A stretch of DNA of 36,129 bases from an uncultured Arthrobacter sp. (GTDB lineage: Bacteria; Actinomycetota; Actinomycetes; Actinomycetales; Micrococcaceae). The stretch's first letter is position 1, and every line of letters begins with the position of its first letter. Both the position numbers and the translations under genes were made by a program. A model generated the notes under the pieces. It had not been told where the DNA came from. It ran no database searches and saw nothing but the letters and a program-made list of their open reading frames with translations. The DNA is taken from the NCBI RefSeq assembly GCF_902805515.1, contig NZ_CADCTE010000128.1:1-36129 (forward strand), read 5' to 3'. Shown here piece after piece: positions 243-26,487 of the stretch.

Positions 243-1160
243 ATGACCACACGCCGCACCTTCGCAGCGCGGCGCCTCCGGCCGGCACGGACGCCGGCGG
301 ACCGCCGAGGGGTTCTGCCGGCGGCATTGCTCACAGCATTCCTGGCCGCGTCGCTGTCGGCCTGTTCCCCGGCAGCTCCGGCGCCGCCCTCACCGCCGGA
401 GCCCCTGTCCTACGTCGCCCTCGGTGATTCCTACGCTTCGGGCCTCGGCGCCGGCTCCTACTCCGGGGAATGCCGGCGCTCCCCGCTGGGCCTGCCCGGG
501 CTGCTGGACGCCGAGGATAGGGTCGACCTCGCCGCGGACGGCACCTGCGCCGGAGCCGTCGCCGCCCCGGGCGCCGCGCCGTCCAGCGTCCCCGGGCAGG
601 TCTCCCAGCTGGTGGAGGAGGGCTCGCTCGGGCCGCAGACCGATCTTGTCACCGTGTCGGCCGGAGGCAACGACGCCGGATTCGGCCAGGTGGCGGGAAC
701 CTGCGCGGCCGCACCCATCGAATCATGCCGCCGCCTGGTCGAGGAGACGACGGCGCTCGTCCTGCCCGCCCTCGCCCGGGACCTCGACGCCCTCTACGGG
801 CAGCTCCGGCGGGCGGCCCCGGAGGCGGCGGTCATCGTGACGGGCTACCCCCACCTGTTCTCCCCCGAATTCGGCGCGGCGGAGGCCCTGAGCCTTCCGG
901 CGCAGGAGGCCTTCAACGCCGGAACCGACTCACTCAACGCCGTCCTCGAGGAGGCCGCCGCTGCTCACGGCTTCCTGTGGGTCCCGACGACCGAAGGCTT
1001 CAGATCGCACGGGCTGGGGGCACCCGAACCGTGGATCACCGGTGCCGGCGAACCGGACGGCCTCCATCCCAACGCCGAGGGCTACCGCTCCGGCTACCTC
1101 CCGGCCGTGCGGGACGGCGCTGACCTTGCCGCCCTGCAGCGGGAGCGGCCCGCACGGTAG
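243..1160 (+). CDS. SGNH/GDSL-family esterase, predicted lipoprotein
   Basis: A 305-residue predicted extracellular esterase or lipase of the SGNH hydrolase superfamily. It has a basic N-terminus, a hydrophobic stretch and a lipobox LSAC, with Cys41 as the predicted lipidation site. A Pro/Ala linker leads to the catalytic domain. Family blocks are visible: GDSY with the nucleophile Ser63, the oxyanion-hole block SAGGND, and the C-terminal DGLHPN block carrying the Asp and His. Several further cysteines in the mature part could form disulfides, as in actinobacterial extracellular SGNH esterases. ATG 243 is chosen because the signal peptide starts there and the hexamer TAGCGT (230-235) lies 7 bases upstream, which suggests a leaderless transcript. 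The in-frame upstream extension is Arg/Pro-rich and does not look like protein. The substrate is unknown; an ester of a lipid or a plant or cell-surface polymer is possible. Confidence 0.85.
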   Translation: MTTRRTFAARRLRPARTPADRRGVLPAALLTAFLAASLSACSPAAPAPPSPPEPLSYVALGDSYASGLGAGSYSGECRRSPLGLPGLLDAEDRVDLAADGTCAGAVAAPGAAPSSVPGQVSQLVEEGSLGPQTDLVTVSAGGNDAGFGQVAGTCAAAPIESCRRLVEETTALVLPALARDLDALYGQLRRAAPEAAVIVTGYPHLFSPEFGAAEALSLPAQEAFNAGTDSLNAVLEEAAAAHGFLWVPTTEGFRSHGLGAPEPWITGAGEPDGLHPNAEGYRSGYLPAVRDGADLAALQRERPAR

Positions 1161-1198
1161 GCAGCCCCGGCAGCGGCCGGACCGGCGGCCACCGCGGC

Positions 1199-1933
1199 TC
1201 AGACGGTTAGCCGCGCCCTCAGCGCGGTGAGCTCACCGGGGCTGAGGCCTGCCTCCCGGAGGTACGCCCCGGCGTCGAGCGTCGAAAGCAGCGCCAGCAG
1301 ATGCGACCGGGCCTGGAGCAGCCAGGCCGACAGTTCCTCGGCGCTCCGGGGGTTCTCCCGCGGTGCCGCCTGGGTCAGGTAGCGCTCGTTCATGGTCCGC
1401 ACGGCCACCTCGTAGTCGTCGGCGATGTCCCCGGCCGGCACCCCGCACGCGGCGAGCAGCAGGGAGGTCACCATGCCGGTGCGGTCGCGCCCGGCCGCGC
1501 AGTGGACGATCACACCCCCGGCCGGTGCCGCGACGACGGCCCGGGCCACCGCGGCGAATTTCCCGGGCCACCGCTCCAGGTTGTCCCGGTAGTGAAGCGG
1601 AGTGTTCAGGTACGGCCCGCACAGGGCCCGGAACCCCGCGTCGGAGGAGTCCTCGGTCGGCAGGTTGCGGACGAGGAACCGCCCGGCCGCCGTGCCGTCC
1701 AGGACGGGGTCGGAGGTGCGGCGGCCCACCTCGCCGGGGTTCCGGAGGTCGATGACCGTGCGCACGCCGTCGTCCCAGGCCTGCTGCCAGCCGCGGTCGG
1801 TCAGCCATTCCCGGCGTCCCATCCGGTAGATCCGGCCGGGGAGGACCCGGCCGGCCACGCCGCCGAGGTCGCGCGCGTTCACGGCGCCCTCCCACCCGAC
1901 GTCCCTGCTCGGGACACTCCCCAGCGCGGTCAT
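1199..1933 (-). CDS. Tyrosine-protein phosphatase, MptpB-like family
   Basis: A 244-residue phosphatase with the Cys-based signature HCAAGRDRTG, in which the Cys is the nucleophile and the Arg binds phosphate. The family N-terminal block NARDLGG and the block TVIDLRNPGEV match the tyrosine phosphatase family that includes mycobacterial MptpB (dual tyrosine and phosphoinositide phosphatases). No signal peptide or membrane segment is visible. ATG 1933 is preferred because a GGAG motif precedes it and the family-like sequence starts shortly after. A longer frame to 2008 would overlap the dehydrogenase gene. It begins 31 bases after the stop of the 3-hydroxyacyl-CoA dehydrogenase gene on the same strand and is probably the last gene of that operon. 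A role in acyl-CoA catabolism is not obvious. The physiological substrate cannot be deduced. Confidence 0.82.
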   Translation of the reverse strand: MTALGSVPSRDVGWEGAVNARDLGGVAGRVLPGRIYRMGRREWLTDRGWQQAWDDGVRTVIDLRNPGEVGRRTSDPVLDGTAAGRFLVRNLPTEDSSDAGFRALCGPYLNTPLHYRDNLERWPGKFAAVARAVVAAPAGGVIVHCAAGRDRTGMVTSLLLAACGVPAGDIADDYEVAVRTMNERYLTQAAPRENPRSAEELSAWLLQARSHLLALLSTLDAGAYLREAGLSPGELTALRARLTV

Positions 1934-1964
1934 GTCCCGGGGATCTCCGAAGGGCGCCGCGGGG

Positions 1965-2816
1965 TCAGACGTTCCACTCGAAGAAACCCCGGCCCGACTT
2001 CCGGCCAAGCTCCCCCCGGGCCACCTTGTCCCTCAGGATCTGCGGCGGGGAGAACCGCTCGCCCAGCGTGGATTCGAGGTATTCGGCGATGCCGAGCCGC
2101 ACGTCGAGGCCCACGATGTCGGTGGTGCGCAGGGGACCCACCGGGTGTTTGTAGCCGAGGACCATGGCGGTGTCGATGTCCTCCGGGGAGGCGACTCCCT
2201 CCTCCACCATGCGCATCGCCTCAAGGGCGAGAGCCACCCCGAGCCGGGAACTGGCGAAACCGGGGGCGTCGCGCACCACCACCGGGGTCTTCCCCAGGGC
2301 CTCGACCCAGCCGCGGGCGGCCGCAGCGGTGGCCTCCGAGGTGTCGGGGCCGAGCACCACCTCGATCAGCGTGGAGGCCGGCACCGGGTTGAAGAAGTGG
2401 AGGCCGCAGAACTCCGAGGGCCGCTTCAGCACCCGGGCCAGCCCGGCGACCGACAGCGAGGAGGTGTTCGTCGCGAGCCAGGCGCCGTCGGCGAGGTGCT
2501 CCTCTACGGCGGCAAGTGCCGCCTCCTTCAGGCCGGCATCCTCCGGGACGGCCTCGACCACGAGCGAGCAGCCCGCGAACGCGGCGTAGTCGGTGGAGAT
2601 CCGGACCCGGTCGAGCATCGCCTGCAGCGGCTCCGTCGTCGATCCGCGCTCCACGCTCTTGTGCAGGGCCCCGGACACCCGCCCATGGGCGGCGAGCGCA
2701 GCGGGATCGTCACGCTCCACGACGACGACGTCGGCCCCGGCGACGACGAACGCGTGGGCGATACCAGCGCCCATCCGCCCTCCGCCGAGCACCCCGACCC
2801 GGGCCGGGACGCTCAT
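1965..2816 (-). CDS. paaH: 3-hydroxyacyl-CoA dehydrogenase (PaaH/FadB2-like)
   Basis: A 283-residue NAD-dependent dehydrogenase that oxidises a 3-hydroxyacyl-CoA to the 3-oxoacyl-CoA. The N-terminal Rossmann motif is GGGRMGAGIA, followed by the acidic end of the second strand (VVVVERD). The catalytic region contains NTSSLSV and GLHFFNPVP, whose His is the general base. The C-terminal helical domain is typical and ends in GRKSGRGFFEW. Length is normal for the single-domain family. Its start overlaps the stop of the enoyl-CoA hydratase gene by ATGA, so translation is coupled. With the PcaF/PaaJ-type thiolase and the operator upstream, 3-hydroxyadipyl-CoA is the likely substrate; 3-hydroxybutyryl-CoA is the alternative. 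The family call is firm and the paa assignment is inference. Confidence 0.8.
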   Translation of the reverse strand: MSVPARVGVLGGGRMGAGIAHAFVVAGADVVVVERDDPAALAAHGRVSGALHKSVERGSTTEPLQAMLDRVRISTDYAAFAGCSLVVEAVPEDAGLKEAALAAVEEHLADGAWLATNTSSLSVAGLARVLKRPSEFCGLHFFNPVPASTLIEVVLGPDTSEATAAAARGWVEALGKTPVVVRDAPGFASSRLGVALALEAMRMVEEGVASPEDIDTAMVLGYKHPVGPLRTTDIVGLDVRLGIAEYLESTLGERFSPPQILRDKVARGELGRKSGRGFFEWNV

Positions 2817-3595
2817 CGCCCGCCGCCCTCGGCCGCTGTGGGAGCCGGCTGGGAACCGTTCCTGCGGTCAAGGAAGCGCTGCATCCGCTCGAACTTCGCC
2901 TCCGACTCAAACAGGATGCCCTGGGCCAACTGGTCGATCAGCGGGTGCGCCTCCGCCGGTGCCGAGAAGACGCTCTTGGTGAGGCGGACGGCAAGCGGGT
3001 CCTGGCGGGCGATGCGGTCGGCGAGCGCATGCGCACCCTCAAGCAGCGCGTCCGGTTCGTGGATCTCGGTGATGAGGCGTGCGGCGAGCGCCTCGGAGGC
3101 GTCCAGGATGCGCCCGGCCAGCAGGATCTCCTTGGCGAGGGGCTCCCCGACCAGCTCCCGAAGGCGCCAGCTCGCCCCGGCCGCGGCGAGGATCCCCAGC
3201 CCGGTCTCCGGGTTGCCAATCTTCAGGGCGGGGGTGCCGATGCGGAAGTCGGCGGCATAGGCCAGCTCGGCGCCGCCGCCGAGGGCGTACCCGTCGAGGG
3301 CGGCAATCACCGGCATTGGCAGGCGGGCGATCCGGGTGAACAGCGTGGAGTTGATGCCGGCGAGCGCGTCGTCGCGGCGGCGCTCCCGGAGTTCGCCGAT
3401 GTCGGCTCCCGAGGCGAAGACACCCGCAGTCCCGGTCAGGATCAGCACCCGTGGGTGCGCCTCAAGGCCCGAGCACAGCTGGTGCAGCTCCTCGACCATG
3501 CGGCGGTCGATCGCGTTGCGTACGGCGGGCCGGTTGAGCCGCACGAGCAGCCGGTCGGGGCCTTCCTCGACAATCAGCGCTTCGAAGGACTCCAT
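2813..3595 (-). CDS. Enoyl-CoA hydratase/isomerase (paa-type operon)
   Basis: A 260-residue crotonase-fold enzyme. The N-terminal LNRP block, the oxyanion-hole segments GVFASGADIGEL and DGYALGGGAELA, and the segment GNPETGLGI with the usual catalytic Glu are all visible. It should hydrate a 2,3-enoyl-CoA or isomerise a ring-derived enoyl-CoA. ATG 3595 is chosen because its A is shared with the TGA stop of the upstream thiolase (TGATG), a coupled arrangement. The open frame extending further upstream lies inside the thiolase gene. The C-terminus has a short Pro/Ala/Gly tail. By context it would act between acyl-CoA entry and the dehydrogenase encoded next. Whether it is PaaF-like (hydratase) or PaaG-like (isomerase) cannot be decided by reading, so no symbol is given. 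Confidence 0.82.
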   Translation of the reverse strand: MESFEALIVEEGPDRLLVRLNRPAVRNAIDRRMVEELHQLCSGLEAHPRVLILTGTAGVFASGADIGELRERRRDDALAGINSTLFTRIARLPMPVIAALDGYALGGGAELAYAADFRIGTPALKIGNPETGLGILAAAGASWRLRELVGEPLAKEILLAGRILDASEALAARLITEIHEPDALLEGAHALADRIARQDPLAVRLTKSVFSAPAEAHPLIDQLAQGILFESEAKFERMQRFLDRRNGSQPAPTAAEGGGR

Positions 3596-4803: not shown

Positions 4804-4857
4804 GACTGCCTCCATGTCGCAGGGCCGGGTGGCCGGTGCACGGCTGGGCGGATCCGG

Positions 4858-4879
4858 AATTACCGACCGCTCGTTCTGT
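4858..4879 (-). promoter_or_regulatory. PaaR-like operator
   Basis: From memory, the corynebacterial PaaR (TetR family) site has half-sites ACTNACCG and CGGTNAGT around a central NNCGNN. Here the + strand reads AATTACCG, then ACCGCT, then CGTTCTGT, matching 13 of 16 fixed positions including the central CG. It lies between the thiolase start and the predicted -35/-10, just past the expected transcription start, where a repressor would block transcription. The match is by eye. The regulator gene is not in the window. Confidence 0.5.
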
Positions 4880-6754: not shown

Positions 6755-7393
6755 TCAGCGCCTGCCGGCAAGGAGGAAAGCCTGGGCTGTTTTCTCGCCC
6801 TCCTGCGGCTCCCGCAGGGTTGAGGAAATCAGCGCGAACCCGTGCCGCGAAAGCAGCCCGGTGAGGACCGCCGGATCCAGCCGGTACGCGTCGAGGCTGA
6901 CCCGGCTGCCGTAGGCCTCGGTGATCCGCCGCTTCTCGTTCCCGGTCTGGAAGGCGAGGAGCAGAGGGCCGTTCGGCACCAGGACTCGGGCGAATTCGGC
7001 AAGGACCGCCTCCACCCTCGGAGGCGGGATGTGGATGAGCGAATACCAGGCCAGAACTCCTGCCGCGGACCGGTCGGCCAGGTCCAGCCGCTCCATGGAC
7101 CCCACCTCGAACGCGAGCGACGGGTGGTCCCGGCGCGCGGCGGCGACCATGCGCGGCGACAGGTCGATCCCCCGCACCGGGGCGCCCAGCGAGGCAAGAT
7201 GGGCGGTGATCCGGCCGGGGCCGCACCCGACGTCGACCAGCGGTCCGGCGCCGTTGGACCGGGCCAGTTCCGCGAACGCGCCCAGCAGCGCGCGCTCGAG
7301 GGGAAGCCCGTCGAGCTCAAAGCGCAGGAGGTCGGCATACCGGTCCGCCACGAGATCGTAGGCGGCGCGGGTGGCGAGGACATCGGGTTCCAT
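6755..7393 (-). CDS. Class I SAM-dependent methyltransferase (UbiE/type 11 fold)
   Basis: A 212-residue soluble methyltransferase. SAM-binding motif I is VDVGCGPGRITAHL, followed by the acidic residue at the end of the second strand (GIDLSPRMV), the GSMERLDL segment and the LAWYSLIHIPP post-motif typical of type 11 methyltransferases. The acceptor cannot be told from sequence; small molecules are typical for this group. It lies 9 bases downstream of the DHFR-fold gene on the same strand. TAGCCT occurs exactly 6 bases before its ATG, and its first three bases are also the stop codon of the upstream gene. It could therefore be transcribed both with its neighbour and from its own start codon. 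It converges with the hemerythrin gene. Confidence 0.82.
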   Translation of the reverse strand: MEPDVLATRAAYDLVADRYADLLRFELDGLPLERALLGAFAELARSNGAGPLVDVGCGPGRITAHLASLGAPVRGIDLSPRMVAAARRDHPSLAFEVGSMERLDLADRSAAGVLAWYSLIHIPPPRVEAVLAEFARVLVPNGPLLLAFQTGNEKRRITEAYGSRVSLDAYRLDPAVLTGLLSRHGFALISSTLREPQEGEKTAQAFLLAGRR

Positions 7394-7402
7394 GGACCGA
7401 GG

Positions 7403-7969
7403 CTAGCCGGTGGAGCCTCGGACGCCGTAGCGCAGGAACACGACCCCGTTGCGGAACCGTCGTTCGTCGAGCAGTTCGAGGTCAAGGCGCACCCCGCCGG
7501 GCAGGAACCGCGTGCCGCCGCCCACGACGACCGGGGAGATGAATTGGTGGATCTCGTCAACGAGCCCCCCGCTGATCGCCCCGGCTGCAAGGCCCGGTCC
7601 GCCCACGGCCAGGTCCCGGGACGCCGCGGCCTTGAGGCGCCCCACGGACGCCGCGTCGAAGGTGCGCTCCAGCCGGGTGCGGGCGCTGGCTACGGCCGGC
7701 AGCGTCCTCGAGTAGACGATCTTGTCGGCGCCCCGCCAGATGTCAGCGAAGTCGGCGATGGCGGCCGGGTGGCCTGCCGTCTCCAGGGTCTCCCAAGCGA
7801 GCATCACCTCATAGAGCCGCCGACCGTACAGGTGGGTGCCCACAGCCCGCTGGAGGTCGTTGATGAACGCGTGTACCTCCTCGTCGGGGACACTCCAGTC
7901 GAAGGAGCCCGCCTCGTCGGCGACATACCCGTCAAGGGAGGTGATCCCCGTAAAAACCAGACGCGCCAT
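7403..7969 (-). CDS. Dihydrofolate reductase-fold (RibD C-terminal-like) protein
   Basis: A 188-residue protein of the RibD_C/dihydrofolate reductase-like family. It begins ARLVFTGITSLDGYVADEAG, has the segment GTHLYGRRLYEVM, and ends with the NADPH-site-like stretch AVGGPGLAAGAI and the C-terminal SPVVVGGGTRFLPGGV. All are typical of the small YyaP/YwjB-type reductases common in actinobacteria, whose substrates are mostly unknown. ATG 7969 is chosen because the family N-terminus begins there. GGAGGG is only three bases upstream, which is tight, and an in-frame start seven codons earlier is the alternative. It is divergent from the aminoglycoside-phosphotransferase-like gene. Confidence 0.82.
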   Translation of the reverse strand: MARLVFTGITSLDGYVADEAGSFDWSVPDEEVHAFINDLQRAVGTHLYGRRLYEVMLAWETLETAGHPAAIADFADIWRGADKIVYSRTLPAVASARTRLERTFDAASVGRLKAAASRDLAVGGPGLAAGAISGGLVDEIHQFISPVVVGGGTRFLPGGVRLDLELLDERRFRNGVVFLRYGVRGSTG

Positions 7970-8085: not shown

Positions 8086-9021
8086 GTGCGGAACGTAGCG
8101 CCTCACGTGGCGGCAAGGGCGGCAGTGCTCGGCAGTGCCGGCCGCAGGTGGCTTGATGAGCTTGAGGGCCTCATCGGCGGGATTGAGCGCGACTGGGCGA
8201 TCACGGTCGGCTCGCCGCTGCCCGGTGGAACAGCGTCCTACGTCGCGGCGGCGCGCATGGCGGACGGCCGCGACGCGGTCCTCAAACTGAGCATTCCCGA
8301 CCCGGATCTCGTCAACCAGGTCGAGACCCTCGTCCGTGCGCGGGGCGAGGGCTACTGCCGGGTGTACCTGCACAGCCCGGAGCGGAACGCCGTCCTCCTT
8401 GAACGCCTCGGTGGTTCGCTGGAAAGCCGGCCACCCTCCCCCGGTGCGGCCCTGGACATCCTGTGCAGGACGCTGCAGTCCGCCTGGCAGGTCGAGCCGT
8501 GGCCGGCGCTGCACGTCGGGGCGCCGGGGCGCAAGGCGCGCCAGCTGGGGGCCCTGATCGAGGAACTGTGGATCCGGTTCGACCGCCCCTGCCCCGAAGC
8601 GGTGGTGGACACGGCGCTGCGGTTCGCCGAGCGACGCGCGGAGGCCTCCGGCCGGCGCCCCTGCGTGGTGGTCCACGGCGACCCCCATCCCGGAAATGCC
8701 CTGCGGGTCGGTGAGCCGCGGCCCGGCGCGGAGTCCGGATTCGTCTTCGTGGACCCCGACGGCTTCCTCGAGGATCCCGCCTACGATCTGGGCGTGGTCC
8801 TCCGCGACTGGTGCGCGGACCTGCAGGGCAGCGGCGCACCGGGCGTCGCCCGGGCTTACTGCCGCCGGCTGTCGGACCGCACCGGAATCGACGCGCGGGA
8901 TATCTGGGAATGGGGCTTCATCGAGCGGGTCTCCAGCGGGCTCTACCTGATGCTGCTCGGAGACGTCGCTGCCGGGCGCCGCTTTCTCCGGGCGGCAGAG
9001 GCGATATTCCCAGCGGACTGA
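8086..9021 (+). CDS. APH(6)/hydroxyurea-kinase-family phosphotransferase
   Basis: A 311-residue kinase-fold protein of the aminoglycoside 6-phosphotransferase/hydroxyurea resistance kinase family. VVHGDPHPGNAL is the Brenner-type catalytic loop with Asp and Asn. VDPDGFLEDPAYDLGVVLRDW carries the Mg-binding Asp and the family-specific EPAYD-like motif. The N-terminal ATP lobe is plausible, with LPGGTASYVAAAR as nucleotide-loop region and DAVLKLSIP as the Lys strand. Members phosphorylate streptomycin, but many chromosomal actinobacterial homologues have no known resistance role. GTG 8086 is the only good start. TAAACC lies 6 bases before it, a weak leaderless-type -10. Resistance is possible but not shown by sequence. 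Confidence 0.8.
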   Translation: MRNVAPHVAARAAVLGSAGRRWLDELEGLIGGIERDWAITVGSPLPGGTASYVAAARMADGRDAVLKLSIPDPDLVNQVETLVRARGEGYCRVYLHSPERNAVLLERLGGSLESRPPSPGAALDILCRTLQSAWQVEPWPALHVGAPGRKARQLGALIEELWIRFDRPCPEAVVDTALRFAERRAEASGRRPCVVVHGDPHPGNALRVGEPRPGAESGFVFVDPDGFLEDPAYDLGVVLRDWCADLQGSGAPGVARAYCRRLSDRTGIDARDIWEWGFIERVSSGLYLMLLGDVAAGRRFLRAAEAIFPAD

Positions 9022-9481: not shown

Positions 9482-9641
9482 GTGGCGCCTGCCGCAGTCC
9501 GCACGGTGATCCGCACGAGAATCCTGCGGACCGTCCGCAATTCCCCGCCGTGGGCGGGAAGGAATTCCGCCGCCCGATTGAGGACGCGGGCTGTCCGCGG
9601 TTTCCTTCCGCCGGCCCCGGAGCCGGCGTTACCGTGTCGGC

Positions 9642-10079
9642 ATGGAACACAATATTCAGATTTCAATCGACTGCGCTGACCCCCATTCCCAGGCGGACTG
9701 GTGGGCCGAAACCCTGGGCTGGATCGTCGAACCGGTCGACGAGGGCTTCATCGACAAAATGCTGGCGGCCGGATACGCGAAGGAGTCCGACGTCACTTCC
9801 CACAACGGCGCCCGCGTGTGGACCGGCGGGGCGGCGGTCTGCAGGGCCGGTGACCTGGAGCGCAAAGACCGGATGCGCCTGGTCTTCCAACCCGTGCCCG
9901 AGCCGAAAAGCGTCAAGAACCGGGTGCACCTGGACATCCACCTGACCGGAACGGACAAGGACAACGCGCGCGGGGCCCTGGTGGCCCGCGGCGCCCGGTT
10001 CCTCTACGAGGCAAGCCAGGGGCCCCTCGTCTGGTACACCATGACCGATCCGGAGGGCAACGAGTTCTGCATCTCCTGA
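9642..10079 (+). CDS. VOC-superfamily (glyoxalase/bleomycin-resistance fold) protein
   Basis: A 145-residue protein of the vicinal oxygen chelate fold. It starts with the strand EHNIQISIDCADPHSQADWW and the family motif WWAETLGW. It continues with RLVFQPVPEPKSVKNRVHLDI, where the second metal-ligand-like His lies, and ends VWYTMTDPEGNEFCI. The last motif (DPEGNEFC) is standard for small actinobacterial glyoxalase-like proteins of unknown substrate. The metal site looks partial, so enzymatic activity is uncertain. TACCGT (9630-9635) lies exactly 6 bases before the ATG, with no Shine-Dalgarno motif, so a leaderless mRNA is predicted. It is 46 bases upstream of menB, which has its own start signal of the same type. 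Confidence 0.78.
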   Translation: MEHNIQISIDCADPHSQADWWAETLGWIVEPVDEGFIDKMLAAGYAKESDVTSHNGARVWTGGAAVCRAGDLERKDRMRLVFQPVPEPKSVKNRVHLDIHLTGTDKDNARGALVARGARFLYEASQGPLVWYTMTDPEGNEFCIS

Positions 10080-10113: not shown

Positions 10114-10119
10114 TAGACT
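10114..10119 (+). promoter_or_regulatory. -10 element of menB, leaderless type
   Basis: TAGACT ends exactly 6 bases before GTG 10126, and no Shine-Dalgarno motif is present. The transcript is predicted to begin at the GTG itself. The same hexamer and spacing recur at the HAD gene (22970-22975). Confidence 0.6.
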
Positions 10120-10125
10120 CGGTTG

Positions 10126-11079
10126 GTGACATCCGATCTTCCCGTCCAGGTCTCCGATACCTTCGACCCGCAGCAGTGGCGCACCGTCTCGGGGTTCGAC
10201 GAGCTGACCGACCTGACCTACCACCGCCAGGTCCAGCGGAGCGCCGACGGCAGCGTGCTCAGGGACCTGCCCGCCGTGCGCATCGCCTTCAACCGCCCCG
10301 AGGTCCGCAACGCCTTCCGCCCCGGGACCGTCGACGAGTTGTACCGCGCCCTCGACCACGCCCGCATGAGCCCTGACGTCGCCACGGTGCTGCTCACCGG
10401 CAACGGCCCCTCCCCCAAGGACGGCGGCCATTCGTTCTGTTCCGGCGGCGACCAGCGCATCCGCGGCCGCGACGGGTACCGGTACGCGGAAGGCGAAACG
10501 AAGGAAAGCATTGACCCGGCGCGTGCCGGCCGGCTCCACATCCTCGAGGTGCAGCGGCTCATCCGGACCATGCCCAAGGTCGTCATCGCCGTCGTCAACG
10601 GCTGGGCGGCCGGCGGCGGCCACAGCCTGCATGTGGTGGCCGACCTGACCCTCGCCTCCCGTGAGCACGCCCGCTTCAAGCAGACCGACGCCGACGTGGG
10701 CAGCTTCGACGCCGGCTACGGTTCGGCCCTGCTCGCACGCCAGATCGGGCAGAAGAAGGCCCGGGAGATTTTCTTCCTGGCCCGGGAGTACTCGGCCGAG
10801 GACATGGTGGCCATGGGCGCGGTCAATGAAGCCGTCGACCACGCCGATCTGGAGCGCACGGCATTGGAGTACGCCGCCGACATCGCCCGGCAGAGCCCCC
10901 AGGCCATCCGGATGCTGAAGTTCGCCTTCAACCTCGCCGATGACGGCCTGGTCGGCCAGCAGGTCTTCGCCGGCGAGGCAACCCGCCTGGCCTACATGAC
11001 CGATGAGGCGGTGGAGGGCAAGGAGGCCTTCCTCGCCAAACGCGACCCGGACTGGTCCGCCTTCCCCTACTACTTCTAG
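10126..11079 (+). CDS. menB: 1,4-dihydroxy-2-naphthoyl-CoA synthase
   Basis: A 317-residue crotonase-fold enzyme that closes the second ring in menaquinone synthesis, converting o-succinylbenzoyl-CoA to DHNA-CoA. MenB hallmarks are FCSGGDQRIRGRDGYRY, the VNGWAAGGGHSLHVVADLTLAS oxyanion region, and the C-terminal GQKKAREIFFLAREY with Asp and Tyr positions typical of MenB. The actinobacterial N-terminal extension is present. GTG 10126 is preferred over TTG 10123 because the upstream TAGACT predicts transcription starting at the GTG. menE follows after 7 bases and menA soon after, so these form one operon. menC, menD and menF are not in this window. Confidence 0.93.
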   Translation: MTSDLPVQVSDTFDPQQWRTVSGFDELTDLTYHRQVQRSADGSVLRDLPAVRIAFNRPEVRNAFRPGTVDELYRALDHARMSPDVATVLLTGNGPSPKDGGHSFCSGGDQRIRGRDGYRYAEGETKESIDPARAGRLHILEVQRLIRTMPKVVIAVVNGWAAGGGHSLHVVADLTLASREHARFKQTDADVGSFDAGYGSALLARQIGQKKAREIFFLAREYSAEDMVAMGAVNEAVDHADLERTALEYAADIARQSPQAIRMLKFAFNLADDGLVGQQVFAGEATRLAYMTDEAVEGKEAFLAKRDPDWSAFPYYF

Positions 11080-13192: not shown

Positions 13193-13492
13193 TCAGAGGT
13201 CGCGCGGCCTGCGGTCTGCGTTCACCGGTGCGTTGGGGTCGATGGAGTCCTCCGCGGCGGCGTCGTCCTTCTCCATGAAGTTGCTCGCCCGCGGGGCGCC
13301 CTCCTTGAACCGCCGCTGCAGTGAAGCGCCGGCGGCGTCGCGCAGCGGGCGGAAGAACAGGTAGGTCACGCACCAGGCGAGGATGGCGGCAACGACGGCG
13401 GAGAGCACCGCACCGAGCCCGAGAACCACGCAGATCACAAAGAAGACGACGACGAGGAGCAGGCGCAGAGCGGTGAATTTGAGGAAGGGCAC
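13193..13492 (-). CDS. DUF4229-type small membrane protein
   Basis: A 99-residue protein with two closely spaced hydrophobic helices (FTALRLLLVVVFFVICVVLGL and AVLSAVVAAILAWCVTYLFF) followed by an Arg-rich, then acidic cytoplasmic tail. The tail begins RPLRDAAGASLQRRF and ends DPNAPVNADRRPRDL. This matches the actinobacterial DUF4229 pattern, and in my knowledge such a gene is often found near menaquinone genes. Function is unknown. The start is GTG 13492. TAAACT lies exactly 6 bases before it, predicting a leaderless mRNA. The divergent PLDc_N gene starts only 30 bases away. Confidence 0.78.
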   Translation of the reverse strand: MPFLKFTALRLLLVVVFFVICVVLGLGAVLSAVVAAILAWCVTYLFFRPLRDAAGASLQRRFKEGAPRASNFMEKDDAAAEDSIDPNAPVNADRRPRDL

Positions 13493-13498
13493 CCTTCA

Positions 13499-13516
13499 AG
13501 TTTACTCGCCTACAAT
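13499..13516. promoter_or_regulatory. Divergent, nearly overlapping leaderless promoters
   Basis: The minus-strand -10 TAAACT (13504-13499) serves GTG 13492. The plus-strand -10 TACAAT (13511-13516) serves ATG 13523. Each hexamer is 6 bases from its start codon, and the two are separated by only 6 bases. Neither has a good -35. Two RNA polymerases could not occupy both at once. Confidence 0.6.
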
Positions 13517-13522
13517 TGGGGT

Positions 13523-14044
13523 ATGCCCCGCCTGTTGCTGTTCCTGGTGCTCCTTGGAGTCGCCGTCATCGTCTACGCGCTGATCGAGTGCGCCATGACC
13601 CGATCCAACGAGGTACGCAGTATCTCGAAACCCGCCTGGCTGATCACGATCCTGGTGGTGCCCCTCATCGGAGCGGGCCTGTGGTTCCTGTTCGGCAGGC
13701 CGCGGCGGACGCGGGGCACCCGTCCTCCCCGCCCGGCCCCGCGGCAGCCGACCGCGCCCGATGACGATCCCCAGTTCCTGCAGAACCTTGAGTCTCGACG
13801 CCGGCAGCAGGCCCGCGAGCAGGAACTGAAGCGTAAGGAAGAGGAGCGCAAGGCCCGCGAAGCCCAATCGAACGGCGGCGCGAAGGGCGGCGGAACCACC
13901 TCGCCCGCAGCGGGCCCTCCCGCCGGCGGCGCCCCCGCAGGCGGCGCCCCCGCCAACGGCACGGATCCCGCTCCGGCCGCCGATCCCGACGACGACGCCG
14001 ACGAGACGGGCAGCACGGGCGCGCACCGGCCCAACAACCCGTAG
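13523..14044 (+). CDS. PLDc_N domain membrane protein
   Basis: A 173-residue protein. Residues 1-60 form the phospholipase D nuclease N-terminal-type (PLDc_N) membrane module: helix LLLFLVLLGVAVIVYALIECA, then a loop with SISKPAWLITILVVPLIGAGLWFLFGRPRR. The second helix begins with the characteristic K-x-W and ends with FGRP. The rest is cytoplasmic and low complexity: a basic/Pro segment, a charged coiled-coil-like stretch (RRRQQAREQELKRKEEERK), then a Gly/Ala/Pro tail with AGGAP repeats and an acidic end. There is no catalytic HKD motif, so it is not a phospholipase. TACAAT stands 6 bases before ATG 13523. Function unknown; proteins of this type often sit beside menaquinone or cytochrome genes in actinobacteria. 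Confidence 0.8.
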   Translation: MPRLLLFLVLLGVAVIVYALIECAMTRSNEVRSISKPAWLITILVVPLIGAGLWFLFGRPRRTRGTRPPRPAPRQPTAPDDDPQFLQNLESRRRQQAREQELKRKEEERKAREAQSNGGAKGGGTTSPAAGPPAGGAPAGGAPANGTDPAPAADPDDDADETGSTGAHRPNNP

Positions 14045-22435: not shown

Positions 22436-22662
22436 GGCGCATCCCTGCCTTCGCTTCCGTCGGGTCCGGTGGGCTCCGGGGCTCGGTTGCGCCGAAGCCT
22501 GATCGCTGCACCTTAAGCGTAGGACCGCCGGTCCCGGTGCGACAGGCCCTGCCCCGCCATACGGCAGGGGTTTCCGCCGCCACGGAAGGTCGGCGGGAGC
22601 CCCTCCGCCGCCTCGAGTCCGGGAGCACCGGCGCGGGCCCGATGACCGCAGATCGGACTGGT
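22436..22662. other. Intergenic region between grx-like gene and isomerase-fold gene
   Basis: These 227 bases hold no convincing gene. On the minus strand the only promoter-like element I see is TACGCT at 22521-22516, which would give a leader of about 74 bases for the gene starting at 22435. The rest is GC-rich. Confidence 0.4.
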
Positions 22663-22920
22663 TCAGGGCCGCAGCAGGCGCCGCAGCCGCTCTTCGTCGA
22701 TCGTCCAAAAGTCGCGCTGGACGCCGTCGATCATCAGCACGGGCAGTTCCTCGGCGAACCTCTCCAGCAGTTCGGGCGCGTCCGTGACCGATTGTTCCCG
22801 CCAGCGCAGACCCAGCGAGGCGGTGACCCTTTCCACCACGGCGCGCGCGTCCTCGCAGAGGTGGCACTGCGGTTTCGTCACGAGCACGACGTCGGGCGGG
22901 CCTTCGGGCTGGGTCTTCAT
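22663..22920 (-). CDS. Glutaredoxin-like (CxxC) thiol protein
   Basis: An 85-residue thioredoxin-fold protein with the active-site motif KPQCHLCEDA and the cis-Pro segment ELPVLMIDG. This is the short glutaredoxin-like (DUF836) family that, in actinobacteria, is found beside rex or heme genes; the M. tuberculosis counterpart would be Rv0508. It is cytoplasmic and may act with mycothiol or thioredoxin. ATG 22920 is preceded exactly 6 bases upstream by TAGGTT (22932-22927), so a leaderless mRNA is predicted; the GAAGAG between them could also serve as a weak ribosome site. It is divergent from the HAD gene, whose start lies 62 bases away. Confidence 0.85.
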   Translation of the reverse strand: MKTQPEGPPDVVLVTKPQCHLCEDARAVVERVTASLGLRWREQSVTDAPELLERFAEELPVLMIDGVQRDFWTIDEERLRRLLRP

Positions 22921-22926
22921 CTCTTC

Positions 22927-22975
22927 AACCTACCCGCCGCGGCACACGGACGCGGGCACCGCTTGTGGCTAGACT
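22927..22975. promoter_or_regulatory. Divergent leaderless promoters: glutaredoxin-like and HAD genes
   Basis: Minus strand: TAGGTT (22932-22927), 6 bases before ATG 22920. Plus strand: TAGACT (22970-22975), 6 bases before ATG 22982. Neither gene needs a leader. The two -10 elements lie 37 bases apart, so the -35 regions overlap in the space between them. Confidence 0.6.
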
Positions 22976-22981
22976 TTCACC

Positions 22982-23794
22982 ATGCGTGGTGCCGCCGGGA
23001 AGGACCTTCCCTTCCCCCTGGATACGCCCGGCGAGCCCGGGTCGGCGGCCTTCTTCGACGTGGACAACACGCTCATGCGCGGCGCCAGCCTGTTCCATGT
23101 GGCGCGGAAGATGTATCAGCGCCGTGCATTCACCCTCCGCTTCGCCGCGGGTCTGGCGTGGAAGCAGCTCCGGTTCGTTCTGCGCGGCGAGACGATGACC
23201 GATGTCAACTCGGTCCGCGATGCGGCGCTCGCCTTCGCCATCGGGATCGCCCACGCGGACATCCTCGCCCTCGGCGAGGAGGTCTACGACGAGATGATCG
23301 CCTCCAAGATCTGGCCCGGGGCCCGGGCCCTGACGGACCAGCACCTGGCCGCCGGGCGGAAGGTGTGGCTGGTGACCGGCACGCCGGTCGAGGTGGCCAG
23401 CGTCATCGCCAAGCGGCTCGGTCTCACCGGTGCCCTCGGCACGGTCGGGGAGGTGGCCGACGGCCTCTACACGGGACGGCTGGTCGGGGAGTTCCTCCAC
23501 GGCGCGGCCAAGGCCGCGGCGGTGAAGGAGCTGGCGGCGCGGGACAACCTCGACCTTGACCGCTGCTGGGCCTACAGCGACTCGTTCAACGACGTCCCGC
23601 TGCTGAGCAGCGTGGGCCACCCGGTCGCAATCAATCCGGACGCCCGGCTGCGCCGGCACGCGCGGGCGAACAACTGGCCGGTGTTCGACTTCCGCAGCGG
23701 CCGCCGCGCGGCAACCCTGGGGCTCAAGGCGGCGACCGGAGTCGGTGCCGTCTACGGAATGTGGCGGGGGTTCGTGAAACTGCGGGACCGCTGA
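22982..23794 (+). CDS. HAD-IB family phosphatase (SerB1-like)
   Basis: A 270-residue haloacid dehalogenase subfamily IB hydrolase. Motif I is AAFFDVDNTLMRG with nucleophile Asp and general acid Asp. Motif II is WLVTGTP, motif III the Lys in FLHGAAKAAAVKEL, and motif IV AYSDSFNDVPLL with the metal-binding Asp. The C-terminal tail RAATLGLKAATGVGAVYG is a weakly hydrophobic helix typical of actinobacterial homologues (M. tuberculosis Rv0505c, named SerB1). The annotation as phosphoserine phosphatase is not secure, since some members act on phospholipid or lysophosphatidate substrates. The start ATG 22982 is fixed by the -10 TAGACT 6 bases upstream. A hairpin region separates it from bS22, which is on the opposite strand. 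Confidence 0.86.
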   Translation: MRGAAGKDLPFPLDTPGEPGSAAFFDVDNTLMRGASLFHVARKMYQRRAFTLRFAAGLAWKQLRFVLRGETMTDVNSVRDAALAFAIGIAHADILALGEEVYDEMIASKIWPGARALTDQHLAAGRKVWLVTGTPVEVASVIAKRLGLTGALGTVGEVADGLYTGRLVGEFLHGAAKAAAVKELAARDNLDLDRCWAYSDSFNDVPLLSSVGHPVAINPDARLRRHARANNWPVFDFRSGRRAATLGLKAATGVGAVYGMWRGFVKLRDR

Positions 23795-23867
23795 CACCGC
23801 CGCTCACCGGACTGCGCCGTCACCCACCGCCAACCGCACCGCCGTTAACCACGTCCGGCCCACCGCT

Positions 23868-23928
23868 CCAACCTGACGGTTGGGGCTGCGGACCGGGAAA
23901 ACTGGAAAGGGAGCCGCCGGACGGCGGC
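23868..23928. terminator. Hairpins between convergent HAD and bS22 genes
   Basis: CCAACC/GGTTGG (23868-23873 and 23878-23883) and GCCGCC/GGCGGC (23913-23918 and 23923-23928) form two small perfect stems. On the minus strand the second is followed by a pyrimidine-rich stretch (CTCCCTTTCC, then AGTTTTCCC), which suits termination of the bS22 transcript. Confidence 0.5.
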
Positions 23929-23958
23929 CCTCCAGCTGTGGAGCAGAAGAGCGGTGCC

Positions 23959-24057
23959 CTACTTCTTGTTGCGGCGCTGGTGGCGGGTCTTGCGAAGCAG
24001 TTTGCGGTGCTTCTTCTTGGCCATACGCTTGCGGCGCTTCTTGATTACTGAACCCAC
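23959..24057 (-). CDS. Small ribosomal protein bS22 (AURKAIP1/COX24-like)
   Basis: A 32-residue, extremely basic protein encoded on the minus strand from GTG 24057 to TAG 23961-23959. The translation begins with VGSVIKKRRKRMAKKKH and ends in RHQRRNKK. It matches the actinobacterial 30S subunit protein bS22, known from mycobacterial ribosome structures (about 33 residues, starting MGSVIKKRRKRM), which binds rRNA and has a relative in mitochondrial COX24/AURKAIP1. GTGAGGACTCT precedes the start, so GAGGA is the ribosome binding site. Genes this short are easily missed. The downstream hairpins and the neighbouring BldC-like gene (195 bases upstream on the same strand) match the conserved actinobacterial pair. 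Confidence 0.9.
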   Translation of the reverse strand: MGSVIKKRRKRMAKKKHRKLLRKTRHQRRNKK

Positions 24058-24251
24058 AGAGTCCTCACAAACTTAATAGGAATCCAGGCGGCTGCCTCCG
24101 CTGCGAAAACAGCGCAGGACCGCCCGGAGCTGACATGGGCCCGCACGAACTGGCGCTGGCCCGGTAAAACCGGTAGTTGCGCGGCGGCTATCGACCGCGC
24201 AAAACGTTCCTTAACAGGGTACAGGCAATTGGTGCCGCCCCCGACCGGCGG

Positions 24252-24461
24252 CTACGCGGTCGCCGACTGCCCGTCGACCTGCGCGTGGCGGAGGTAATCG
24301 GCCACGGCCGACTCGGGAACCCGGTAGGAGCGCCCGAACTGGACGGCCGGAAGTTCCCCTGAATGAACGAGTCGGTAGACGGTCATTTTCGACACCCGCA
24401 TGACCTCGGCGACTTCCGCCACCGTCAAGAACTGCACATCCGAGAAGTTCCCGTCTGCCAT
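24252..24461 (-). CDS. BldC/excisionase-like helix-turn-helix protein
   Basis: A 69-residue DNA-binding protein with a MerR-like winged helix of excisionase type: FLTVAEVAEVMRVSKMTVYRLVHSGELPAVQFGRSYRVPESAVADYL. This is typical of the BldC family and its homologues (in M. tuberculosis Rv0500A, upstream of bS22 Rv0500B). BldC-like proteins bind head-to-tail direct repeats. The targets here are unknown, but constant linkage with bS22 hints at a shared role. It has no phage neighbours, so despite the fold it is unlikely to be an excisionase. The start ATG 24461 is preceded by GGTGAG. The 238 bases upstream hold its probable promoter, near 24580-24612 on the minus strand. Confidence 0.88.
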   Translation of the reverse strand: MADGNFSDVQFLTVAEVAEVMRVSKMTVYRLVHSGELPAVQFGRSYRVPESAVADYLRHAQVDGQSATA

Positions 24462-24578
24462 CTCACCACTATTCCTTTACTTGAAGGCTTCCCACCCTGA
24501 GACCGGCATTCGAACTGATGCCGGATGCGCGCAATGGATACGCCGCCTCGAAGCATGAGGATTTTCTGCCTAGGACGG

Positions 24579-24612
24579 TACTCTAGTGGCACCTGTGACA
24601 AAAGTGAAAGCC
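24579..24612 (-). promoter_or_regulatory. A+T-rich candidate promoter region upstream of the BldC-like gene
   Basis: On the minus strand TAGAGT (24585-24580) follows an A+T-rich stretch containing TTTCAC (24609-24604) with an 18-base spacer. On the plus strand the same bases read TACTCT (24579-24584), a possible -10 in the other direction. The orientation is ambiguous. The minus reading fits the BldC-like gene with a leader of about 110 bases. Confidence 0.35.
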
Positions 24613-24648
24613 CTTGTGGTAGAGAGGCTCCCTTGACTGCCGGCGGAG

Positions 24649-24681
24649 GCCGGTCGGGGTGGCAAAGAGCGGCCGACCGGC
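24649..24681 (-). terminator. Hairpin after the ArsR-type gene
   Basis: GCCGGTCGG (24649-24657) and CCGACCGGC (24673-24681) form a perfect 9-bp stem with a 15-base loop, 19 bases past the ArsR-type stop. There is no T tract, so this is a GC-only actinobacterial-type terminator. Confidence 0.5.
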
Positions 24682-24699
24682 CGCCCGTTCGGCCGCACG

Positions 24700-25230
24700 C
24701 TACCGCTCGTGGTCCTTCCGACGCCGCAGCTGGGAGATGAGGTCGGCCGCGCGTTCGGCCGCCCGCCCCATGGTCCTGCCGATCTGCTGCTGCCGGGTCG
24801 CCTCCGCCGTGGCCCGCGGTGATCCGGCGGGCGCGAGCGCAGCCGCCGCCAGCACTCCTGCGGCCGGGGCCCCGGCGCCGGCCGGCACCTCCACTGCGGA
24901 GACGGGTGCCTCCGGCCCCGCGGGAGCGGGGACGGTGAAGGAAACCGGCACCTCGGGGGCGGCCTCGGCCGGCGCCGCGGTGAAGCCTGCGATCCAGTCC
25001 TGCACGGAAAGCAGGGGTGAGGATTCAAGCGAATAGAAGCGTTTCTGGCCCTGCGCCCGCATGGTGACCAGGCCGGCCTCGCGCAGTACCTTGAGGTGCT
25101 TCGACACCGTCGGCTGGCTCACGCCGAGCTCTCCCACGAGCTGCCCCACCGATTTCCCCTCGGTGCGCAGCAGCTCGAGGATGTCCCGCCGCGTGCGCTC
25201 GGCGATGACTGCAAACACGTCGATACCCAT
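24700..25230 (-). CDS. ArsR-type winged-helix regulator with long Ala/Pro linker
   Basis: A 176-residue regulator. Residues 1-75 form an ArsR/SmtB-like winged helix (RTRRDILELLRTEGKSVGQLVGELGVSQPTVSKHLKVLREAGLV and the wing RAQGQKRFYSLE). No metal-binding cysteines are present, so it is not a metal sensor of the classic type. A low-complexity Ala/Pro/Val linker of about 60 residues follows (PAPAGPEAPV and similar). The C-terminal segment RTMGRAAERAADLISQLRRRK is a conserved-looking amphipathic helix. The N-terminal motif and this C-terminal helix resemble actinobacterial regulators usually placed beside the BldC-like/bS22 pair. ATG 25230 has TAGGGT exactly 6 bases upstream, a leaderless-type start. 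The effector is unknown. Confidence 0.83.
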   Translation of the reverse strand: MGIDVFAVIAERTRRDILELLRTEGKSVGQLVGELGVSQPTVSKHLKVLREAGLVTMRAQGQKRFYSLESSPLLSVQDWIAGFTAAPAEAAPEVPVSFTVPAPAGPEAPVSAVEVPAGAGAPAAGVLAAAALAPAGSPRATAEATRQQQIGRTMGRAAERAADLISQLRRRKDHER

Positions 25231-25284
25231 TGCTTCACCCTAGCGATATATGCCGCCGACGGCATCCCGACCCGCTGCGGGCCC

Positions 25285-26487
25285 TCAGTCGAACCATGGG
25301 TCGAGCCCGTGCAGCGGGAACACGGCCCGGCGCGTGGCCATGACCGTGCGGTCGAGGTCGTCGCCGGGGTCGTAGCCCACTTCCCAGGACCGCCACCAGG
25401 TGTCCGCGCCGTCACCCATCAGGGCCGGCGGGGTGGAGCCGTAGCGTTCGCGCACGTGGTCCCGCCACGCCGGCGGCACCGGGGTGGACGGCCCGACCGC
25501 GGCTCCCGCCGCCACCGCAATGAGCAGGCCCCAGGAGCGGGGCACCACGTTCGCGAGGCTGTATCCGCCGCCGCCGGTGGAGATCCACCGCCCGCCGCAC
25601 AGGCGCTCCGCGAGGTCCCGGACACCGAGCATCATCGCGTGCTGGGCGTCGACACTGAGCCGCAGGTTCGTCAGCGGATCCGCAAGGTGGGAGTCGCACC
25701 CGTGCTGGCTGACGATCACCTCGGGCGCAAACACCTCTGCCAGCTGGGGCACCACGGCGTGGAATGCGCGCAGGACCGCCGCATCGCCGGCCGAGGTCGG
25801 AAGGGCAACGTTGACCGCGGTGCCCTCGGCGCCGGGGCCGCCGGTCTCGTTCGCGAAGCCGGTTCCGGGAAACAGGCTCATTCCCGTTTCATGGAGGGAG
25901 ATGGTCATGACCCGCGGCTCGTTCCAGAAGATGCTCTGGGTGCCGTCCCCGTGGTGGGCGTCCACGTCGAGGTAGAGCACCCGCGCGACCCCTGAGTCGA
26001 GGAGCCGCTGGATGCTCGCGGCGGCGTCGTTGTAGATGCAGAAGCCGCTGGCCGCCGATCGTGCCGCGTGGTGCATGCCGCCGCCGAAGTTCACGGCGTG
26101 GAGTGCGGTGCCTGCGACGATGGCGTCGGCCGCCGCCAGCGAGCCGCCGACCAGCCGGGCACTGGCCTCGTGCATCCCGGCGAAGCCCGGGGTGTCGGAG
26201 GTGCCCAGGCCGAACTCGGGACGCGCGGTGTCGGGGTCGGCGCTCACCGCGCGCACCCCGGCGATGTAGGTGGGGCTGTGCACCGTTGCAAGTTCGGCGT
26301 CGGCGGCCACGAACGGGTGCACCACCGACACGGTGGGGAGGTCGAGCAGCCCCATCTCACGCGCCAGCCGGGCCGTCAGCGCAAGCCGGGCCGGGTTCAT
26401 CGGGTGATGCGGGCCGAAGTTGTAGGCGAGCATCTCATCGTCCCAGACAACGTGTGTCGGGGGCGCGGGCGCGGAGGAATTAGACAT
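25285..26487 (-). CDS. acuC: AcuC-type acetoin utilization/histone deacetylase-fold protein
   Basis: A 400-residue protein of the class I histone deacetylase superfamily (AcuC), a zinc-dependent lysine deacetylase. Motifs are YNFGPHHPMNPARL, the catalytic HxHH-like segment NFGGGMHHAARSAA (His-His), the metal ligands in LDVDAHHGDGTQSIF, and ISLHETGMSLFPGTG. EVIVSQHGCDSHLADPLTNL and GGGGYSLANVVPRSW complete the active site. In other bacteria AcuC regulates acetyl-CoA synthetase by deacetylation, and in actinobacteria it appears constitutively beside the BldC/bS22 cluster. ATG 26487 is preceded 7 bases upstream by TAGCCT; the intervening GAGGGCG could also be a ribosome site. The substrate is not known. 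Confidence 0.88.
   Translation of the reverse strand: MSNSSAPAPPTHVVWDDEMLAYNFGPHHPMNPARLALTARLAREMGLLDLPTVSVVHPFVAADAELATVHSPTYIAGVRAVSADPDTARPEFGLGTSDTPGFAGMHEASARLVGGSLAAADAIVAGTALHAVNFGGGMHHAARSAASGFCIYNDAAASIQRLLDSGVARVLYLDVDAHHGDGTQSIFWNEPRVMTISLHETGMSLFPGTGFANETGGPGAEGTAVNVALPTSAGDAAVLRAFHAVVPQLAEVFAPEVIVSQHGCDSHLADPLTNLRLSVDAQHAMMLGVRDLAERLCGGRWISTGGGGYSLANVVPRSWGLLIAVAAGAAVGPSTPVPPAWRDHVRERYGSTPPALMGDGADTWWRSWEVGYDPGDDLDRTVMATRRAVFPLHGLDPWFD

Follow-up and report, generated by a model that had tools for sequence, protein, structure and literature searches.

Ten genes in the window, the whole stretch of 36,129 nucleotides analyzed from a soil bacterium (an uncultured Arthrobacter sp.), are preceded by a TANNNT hexamer ending 6 or 7 bases ahead of the start codon, and the best explanation, held with high confidence, is that these hexamers are housekeeping -10 boxes giving mRNAs that are predicted to be leaderless. 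An earlier note on this DNA had proposed as much; its proposal, while still a prediction, is now supported by a peak of the motif at this distance in the genome, by depletion of Shine-Dalgarno motifs, by a bias toward the first genes of transcription units and by conservation in orthologs.

The -10 element of a promoter usually occupies positions -12 to -7 relative to a transcription start at +1, and this is where the hexamer lies if +1 is placed at the beginning of the start codon. With a -10 box placed directly ahead of the start codon, the message thus probably begins at the start codon. According to the proposed mechanism, the TANNNT hexamers would be the -10 boxes of ordinary housekeeping-sigma promoters, from which transcription would begin exactly at the start codon when the spacer between hexamer and start codon is 6 bases, and either there or one base earlier when the spacer is 7 bases. 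Transcription starting at the start codon would yield an mRNA devoid of a 5′ untranslated region, and ribosomes would then start on the 5′-terminal ATG or GTG with no Shine-Dalgarno contact.

Ten Box Genes in the Window

The ten hexamers and start codons listed in the earlier note were checked directly against the letters of the window and every one proved exact. Eight sites have a 6-base spacer: TAGCCT at 7400-7405 ahead of ATG 7393 (7391..7405, minus strand; class I methyltransferase, PF13649), TACCGT at 9630-9635 ahead of ATG 9642 (9630..9644, plus; Glyoxalase_6, PF18029), TAGACT at 10114-10119 ahead of GTG 10126 (10114..10128, plus; menB, coding for 1,4-dihydroxy-2-naphthoyl-CoA synthase, NF006186 above cut-off), TAAACT at 13499-13504 ahead of GTG 13492 (13490..13504, minus; DUF4229 gene, PF14012), TACAAT at 13511-13516 ahead of ATG 13523 (13511..13525, plus; PLDc_N-domain gene, PF13396), TAGGTT at 22927-22932 ahead of ATG 22920 (22918..22932, minus; glutaredoxin-like gene, PF05768), TAGACT at 22970-22975 ahead of ATG 22982 (22970..22984, plus; HAD-IB hydrolase, TIGR01490 above cut-off) and TAGGGT at 25237-25242 ahead of ATG 25230 (25228..25242, minus; ArsR-family regulator, NF033788 above cut-off). 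The spacer is 7 bases at the two remaining sites, TAGCGT at 230-235 ahead of ATG 243 (230..245, plus; GDSL-like lipase/acylhydrolase, PF13472) and TAGCCT at 26495-26500 ahead of ATG 26487 (26485..26500, minus; histone-deacetylase-family, AcuC-like gene, PF00850). Eight of the start codons are therefore ATG and two GTG. All ten encoded proteins match a Pfam family, and the third-position GC of 0.85-0.92 across the ten reading frames is coding-like. The host belongs to the Actinobacteria, the closest match of one window protein being from Arthrobacter crusticola (93%). No RNA families or tRNAs were found within the window.

Genes were called with software of our own that takes no account of signals upstream of the starts. 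At its first setting, six of the ten starts were recovered, and 13492, 13523 and 22920 were among the small genes missed, for which reason the score threshold and minimum length were lowered before counting. The lowered setting recovered nine of the ten starts, the tenth being called at TTG 327 instead of ATG 243. Among the 37 genes called in the window, 0.26 matches are expected at spacers 6 and 7 together given the background of the genome sample described below; the earlier note had estimated well under one of about 36 genes. Ten observed against 0.26 expected gives a Poisson P of ~3e-13, the ten including the gene at 243 and the called gene set itself holding nine.

A Peak of TANNNT Ahead of Start Codons in the Genome

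A count of TANNNT by distance upstream of starts, the computational check that had been suggested, was carried out on a sample of 530,636 bases from the same genome with 430 called starts, and the anticipated peak at 6-7 bases was found. TANNNT occurs at spacers 6, 7, 8 and 9 ahead of 42, 13, 5 and 3 of the 430 starts vs. 1.5 per position further upstream, which makes a sharp peak at 6 bases, flanked by a shoulder over 7-9. Of the 64 XYNNNZ motifs compared over spacers 3-11, TANNNT is the strongest. Strict boxes at spacers 6-9 precede 62 of the 430 starts (14%), a figure that excludes weaker boxes such as CANNNT. Counts made independently of gene calling give the same picture: TANNNT-N6-RTG occurs 95 times in the sample vs. 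25-47 times at 30 other spacers (0 to 30), and TANNNT-N6-ATG occurs 337 times in the whole genome vs. 90 times for N12, with backward controls of 121 and 124. The 55 box genes of the sample start with ATG (38) or GTG (17) and never with TTG, and the ten window genes likewise use ATG or GTG only. No -35 hexamer was found upstream of the boxes, where only single-base enrichments of G were seen, at -33 (36 of 62 box genes) and at -24.

Box genes are also poor in Shine-Dalgarno motifs, scored as a four-base motif within -20 to -4. In the sample, the four-mer is found in 12 of 55 box genes vs. 203 of 375 others (P = 9e-6), and the median duplex energy is -3.6 vs. -6.3 kcal/mol. Within the window, the observation that most box genes lack such a motif holds for nine of the ten, the exception being 26487 (GAGG); at 13492, a GAAGG touches the GTG. 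The genes that retain a four-mer, 12 of 55 in the sample and 26487 in the window, may in some cases have a second, leadered promoter. Box genes tend to come first in their transcription unit: a divergent neighbor or a gap of at least 40 bases was found for 47 of 52 box genes vs. 258 of 348 others in the sample (P = 0.009), in a test that uses only the strand of the neighbor and a 40-base gap and leaves out 3 and 27 genes, respectively, at piece edges. The other 5 of the 52 lie less than 40 bases behind a same-strand gene, which counts against a leaderless reading for them.

Two near misses had been cited as strengthening the pattern, and this is upheld for one of them only. CAGGAT at 29577-29582, 6 bases ahead of ATG 29570 (29568..29582, minus), belongs to a class, CANNNT at spacer 6, that is enriched in the sample (13 of 430 starts, where the mean per position is 4.15). 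All 16 same-genus rows tested for this gene have CAGGAT or CACGAT with a spacer of 6 or 7; one further same-genus locus (L130), which lacks the N-terminus, is outside the 16. TAAACC at 8086, on the other hand, adds no strength, because TANNNC at spacer 6 is unenriched in the sample (0 of 430 vs. 2.54); no close ortholog of the 8086 gene was found in the 28 genomes searched, the best same-genus match having 31% identity.

Conservation of the Boxes in Orthologs

Among orthologs with 40-88% protein identity, which existed for 9 of the 10 box genes and 17 of the 27 other genes, the box is present in 118 of 119 orthologs of box genes vs. 9 of 121 orthologs of the remaining genes in the window. These counts are not independent events, since orthologs are related to each other, and the loci compared were chosen for carrying the gene or its neighbor and judged by sequence only. 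The start codon of an ortholog was allowed to shift by as many as 45 bases, a freedom that lets some matches arise by chance; a control at spacers 12-14 measures it at 4 of 119 and 1 of 121, respectively. From 186 gene-locus pairs of box genes, 29 were dropped for identity above 88%, 13 for identity below 40%, 13 as short, 11 for lacking the N-terminus and 1 for lacking a candidate start; from 279 pairs of other genes, the same classes removed 69, 42, 31, 9, and 4, in addition to 3 duplicates.

Box, spacing and start codon are retained jointly in diverged orthologs, and the arrangement is inherited gene by gene. The box was found in 2 of 2 diverged orthologs of the lipase gene at 243, 15 of 15 for Glyoxalase_6 at 9642 (spacer 6 or 7), 12 of 12 for DUF4229 at 13492, 8 of 8 for PLDc_N at 13523, 4 of 4 for the glutaredoxin-like gene at 22920, 5 of 5 for the HAD-IB hydrolase at 22982, 14 of 14 for the ArsR-family gene at 25230 and 20 of 21 for the AcuC-like gene at 26487 (spacer 7 or 6), whose full listing has the box in 22 of 23 rows, 1 of 24 having been left out for want of a candidate start. 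The methyltransferase at 7393 had only close orthologs among the loci of the main count, and these retain the box (L003 and L221, 95%). Six remote homologs (35-51%) were inspected afterwards: a box with spacer 7 precedes three of them, two lack a candidate start and one (L223, 41%) has no box, which counts against the preferred explanation.

The menB box is present in every one of 45 distinct rows, left after 3 duplicates had been excluded from 48 hits, and in 19 of 20 further, author-picked genomes of the host's order. Fifteen different hexamers occur among 38 menB orthologs, T, A, and T being constant while the middle letters drift. On the contrary side, outside the order only 7 of 20 menB genes have the box, and a control with the motifs AT...T and T...AT gave hits in 7 of all 40 genomes of the same survey. 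Among the papers listed by a search of an open-access library for menB and leaderlessness, none was relevant as judged by title and the start of the abstract.

The DUF4229 and PLDc_N genes are separated by a divergent intergenic region of 30 bp (13493..13522) that holds both of their -10 boxes. Among the 14 loci that carry both genes, the length of 30 and the core AGTTTACTCGCCTACAATT are retained in 5 of 5 loci L002-L006, and an 87-90 bp version with boxes TAAACT and TAGACT is found in 9 of 9 loci L007-L015. The 30-bp region is conserved and holds two divergent predicted leaderless promoters.

A further reading, which we put forward tentatively and regard as somewhat doubtful, is that long-lasting selection acts on leaderlessness as a trait of particular genes, as opposed to its arising from mere drift of promoters. 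On this reading, menB and the AcuC-like gene would have remained leaderless across the order, and in one Arthrobacter group the process would have gone as far as the 30-bp region, whose two leaderless promoters would exclude each other because RNA polymerase bound at one must cover the other. The middle letters of the menB and AcuC-like boxes, their spacing (6, 7, or 8) and the other upstream DNA would then have turned over.

Alternative Explanations

With a spacer of 6, a TAG or TAA box lies in frame and amounts to a stop codon at -12 that could force a start caller to the next start, and the frame is indeed closed at most 9 bases upstream in six of the ten genes (7393, 10126, 13492, 22920, 22982, and 25230). 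Against this, TGANNT, also a stop, is never found at spacer 6, TAG or TAA boxes without the last T occur there only 3 times, non-stop TACNNT and TATNNT boxes show the same peak (12 at spacer 6) and the peak persists without gene calling in the sample and the whole genome; we consequently reject this explanation, whose probability is negligible. The third base of the box is frequently G at spacer 6 (24 of 42), as it would be if TAG were selected for its in-frame stop, but spacers 7 (6 of 13) and 8 (3 of 5), which are out of frame, show G about as often, small as these numbers are, so this variant is rejected too and the preference looks like that of a sigma factor.

The fixed distance between hexamer and start codon is also what a ribosome-binding site would show, and the hexamer might be a translation signal in an mRNA leader, read by the ribosome, instead of a promoter element. 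We give this virtually no credence: retention of T, A, and T around free middle letters is the -10 pattern at mapped start sites of Mycobacterium tuberculosis (PMC3898074), the box is anticorrelated with Shine-Dalgarno motifs, and it is rarer inside operons, although genes there would need a leader signal all the same. A TTGACA-like sequence is the consensus for the -35 element. The G enriched at -33 is where the third base of such an element would fall at 17-bp spacing. It is improbable, though less so, that the hexamers are real -10 boxes while many messages come from other promoters upstream, the leaderless form being minor or conditional. The Shine-Dalgarno four-mers retained by a minority of box genes would fit, as would the 14% of leaderless genes of M. 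smegmatis that also have a leadered transcript (PMC6448022); on the other side stand the nine window genes without a four-mer and the divergent regions of 30 and 61 bp, where a second promoter would hardly fit without reaching into the neighboring gene. Leaderless transcription from the boxes is hence retained as the preferred explanation.

Significance and Comparison with Known Systems

The ten genes gain well-supported start codons and promoter positions in a little-mapped genus, and the box provides a cheap rule for locating a few hundred more such genes in this genome. Among the papers listed by a search of an open-access library, none was, by its title, about transcription-start mapping in Arthrobacter. 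menB offers a single gene for asking why a leaderless message is kept across an order.

Leaderless mRNAs are established in actinobacteria, as the earlier note stated (PMC3160421; PMC3898074). In M. tuberculosis, Cortes et al. (2013; PMC3898074) described a TANNNT -10 motif with no conserved -35 motif, and about a quarter of the genes with a primary start site are leaderless, both ATG and GTG are used and divergent promoters are closely juxtaposed; TANNNT, the lack of a -35 motif, both start codons and juxtaposed divergent promoters are common to M. tuberculosis and the window, although the starts of M. tuberculosis were mapped by 5′-end sequencing whereas those of Arthrobacter are predicted. 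Leaderless status tends to be common to homologs of M. smegmatis and M. tuberculosis, with 62% or 73% agreement among mapped starts (Martini et al., 2019; PMC6448022), compared with the 118 of 119 orthologs counted here by sequence at chosen loci. Zheng et al. (2011; PMC3160421) reported that high-GC genomes have a TAnnnT signal ~10 bp ahead of the start. They predicted TA-led leaderless genes for 86 of the 89 actinobacterial genomes, at ~20% of genes as against 14% with strict boxes here, and pointed out that within an operon leaderlessness is limited to the first gene. Their main text does not name Arthrobacter, and the TA-led genes that it describes show no difference in kind from the boxes of the window. 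The general phenomenon is already known, and what is new is that these genes are further predicted members of it.

Genome-Wide Occurrence of the TANNNT Box

The earlier note had reported TANNNT hexamers (boxes), putative -10 elements, 6 or 7 bases before ten start codons of the window, and all ten lie exactly there. The spacer between box and start codon is 6 bases at eight starts, whose products match by Pfam a methyltransferase at 7393(-), Glyoxalase_6 at 9642(+), MenB at 10126(+), DUF4229 at 13492(-), PLDc_N at 13523(+), a glutaredoxin-like protein at 22920(-), a HAD hydrolase at 22982(+) and an ArsR regulator at 25230(-); it is 7 bases at two, a GDSL lipase at 243(+) and a histone-deacetylase family protein at 26487(-). 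Every one of the ten proteins thus has a Pfam family match, and GC at the third codon position is 0.85–0.92 across their frames. One window protein has its closest match in A. crusticola (93%, protein search), which places the window in or beside Arthrobacter.

Chance would yield 0.26 such starts for two spacers over the 37 window genes, and the claimed excess is borne out by a wider sample of the same genome (41 pieces including the window; 530,636 of 3,742,744 bases). A simple gene caller based on coding potential and blind to upstream signals, its thresholds lowered after a first setting had missed small genes, returned 446 genes, 430 of which have 60 bases upstream and form the counting set. 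Counted by distance upstream of starts, as the earlier note had proposed, TANNNT peaks at spacer 6 (42/430) and then declines to 13, 5 and 3 at spacers 7, 8 and 9, against a background of 1.5 per position further upstream. At spacer 6 it leads by far among all 64 XYNNNZ motifs (spacers 3–11). Independently of gene calls, the sample contains 95 instances of TANNNT-N6-RTG vs. 25–47 at each of the 30 other spacers between 0 and 30; genome-wide, TANNNT-N6-ATG is found 337 times vs. 90 for TANNNT-N12-ATG, and the backward-read controls number 121 and 124.

Genes with a box at spacer 6–7 differ from the others in several respects. A four-base Shine-Dalgarno test is positive in 12/55 of them vs. 203/375 others (P 9e-6), and they pair less strongly with the 16S tail (median -3.6 vs. 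-6.3 kcal/mol). A divergent neighbor or a gap of at least 40 bases precedes 47/52 box genes vs. 258/348 others (P 0.009), piece-edge genes (3 box, 27 others) being left out. Their start codons are ATG (38) and GTG (17). Aligning the 62 starts that have a box at spacer 6–9 on that box reveals an excess of G at -9, -10, -14, -24, and -33.

Alternative Readings of the Box and Its Near Misses

Because TAG and TAA boxes at spacer 6 are in frame as stops at -12, they might bias which start codon is chosen. At that spacer, however, TGANNT, likewise a stop, occurs 0 times, TAG/TAA boxes missing the last T occur only 3 times, and the non-stop TAC/TAT boxes number 12; this artifact is therefore ruled out, and what counts is the final T, and with it the promoter reading, rather than the stop. 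At the near miss 29570(-), the AGGA within CAGGAT might serve as a Shine-Dalgarno core; CACGAT, which three relatives carry instead, is not such a core, however. CANNNT at spacer 6 is enriched (13/430 vs. 4.15 background). Of the 23 rows listed, the 16 from the same genus all have CAGGAT or CACGAT at spacer 6–7, and the seven belonging to other families do not have the motif; one more same-genus locus is missing the N-terminus. The view that near misses strengthen the pattern consequently holds for 29570 and is not supported for TAAACC at 8086(+), as TANNNC at spacer 6 was found at 0/430 sample starts.

A CTGGGA element lies upstream of CAGGAT (29583–29610, minus strand), at most 40 bases from the start in 13/23 rows, at a distance matching no usual -35 spacing. 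The 8086 gene (8086–9021, plus strand) has no close relative for comparison; its same-genus matches reach at most 31% and its best match, 40%, belongs to another family, and it is perhaps accessory or transferred.

Conservation of the Box in Orthologs

All 37 window genes entered the comparison, 243 with the start from the earlier note. Orthologs qualified if their protein identity was 40–88%, coverage 60% and the N-terminus nearly complete, duplicates being removed; a box was scored if TANNNT stood at spacer 6–8 before any in-frame start up to 45 bases from the expected position. It was present in 118/119 orthologs of box genes (9/10 genes with qualifying orthologs) and in 9/121 orthologs of non-box genes (17/27 genes with orthologs), counts that are not a test on independent events because the rows are phylogenetically related. 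The control spacer 12–14 gave 4/119, all at 25230, and 1/121. Retention alone is no proof of selection for leaderless translation, since a separately conserved promoter and start codon would look identical. At 9642 and 26487 some relatives have spacer 6 and others spacer 7, a switch that points to leaderless transcripts with either spacing.

Five of the nine boxes in non-box orthologs come from gene 1933 (1199–1933, minus strand), which has none itself, its upstream neighbor ending 31 bases away; TANNNT at spacer 6–8 is found in 5/7 of its diverged orthologs, and gene 1933 may have lost its box on entering an operon. The 7393 gene (6755–7393, minus strand) has no ortholog within the identity range; among six remote homologs, a box occurs at spacer 7 in three and is absent from one (L223), and the other two lack a candidate start. 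L002 offers no candidate start for the gene either, and in the related genome G007 (L228) the match is limited to residues 161–212 with one internal stop, so this methyltransferase gene may be decaying in these relatives. Upstream of the ArsR box, ATATATCGC (25243–25251, minus strand) is kept in 9/17 rows and may belong to an operator that overlaps the predicted leaderless promoter.

For menB (10126), scored at spacer 5–9 with the start within -90 to +60 bases, the box is present in 45/45 distinct rows, the spacer 12–16 control in 1. Among further genomes, it is found in 19/20 chosen by the author across families of the order, the sole exception having CACAAT at spacer 6, and in 7/20 outside the order; of these 40 genomes, 1 scores for the spacer control and 7 for two control motifs combined. 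The middle of the hexamer is variable, 38 menB orthologs having 15 different hexamers, and spacers 6, 7, and 8 are found in 27, 9, and 2 of these orthologs. A limited search of the open-access literature found no description of long persistence of a leaderless menB.

Predicted Divergent Promoters and Comparison with Known Leaderless Genes

The sample holds 68 divergent pairs, 21 with a box on one side and 2 with boxes on both, and these two lie in the window. A gap of 30 bases separates 13492 from 13523 and holds both opposite-strand boxes, 6 bp apart; the core AGTTTACTCGCCTACAATT is identical in 5/5 loci of one group of relatives (L002–L006). In another group (L007–L015), 87–90 bases separate the same genes in 9/9 loci, with the boxes TAAACT and TAGACT. 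The usual footprint of RNA polymerase is too large for both promoters of the 30-base form simultaneously, and mutual exclusion of these predicted promoters is thus likely.

Leaderless genes were predicted in 86/89 actinobacterial genomes with the same TAnnnT signal (Zheng et al., PMC3160421) and mapped in M. tuberculosis (Cortes et al., PMC3898074), in line with the earlier note, which called leaderless mRNAs established in mycobacteria and other actinobacteria. RTG at transcript +1 is far above expectation in mycobacteria (PMC4633059), leaderless status agrees at 62 or 73% between two mycobacteria (PMC6448022), and 21.6% of bacterial species are predicted to have leaderless transcription by GeneMarkS-2, which uses several upstream-pattern models (PMC9581028). 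The box pattern is real, well above chance and, as far as sequence can tell, correctly interpreted as leaderless; leaderless transcription is itself ordinary for the phylum, and the ten window genes are further predicted examples of it. In M. tuberculosis, divergent promoters in close juxtaposition are likewise reported to be a common arrangement (PMC3898074), and the predicted pair at 13492/13523 resembles them.
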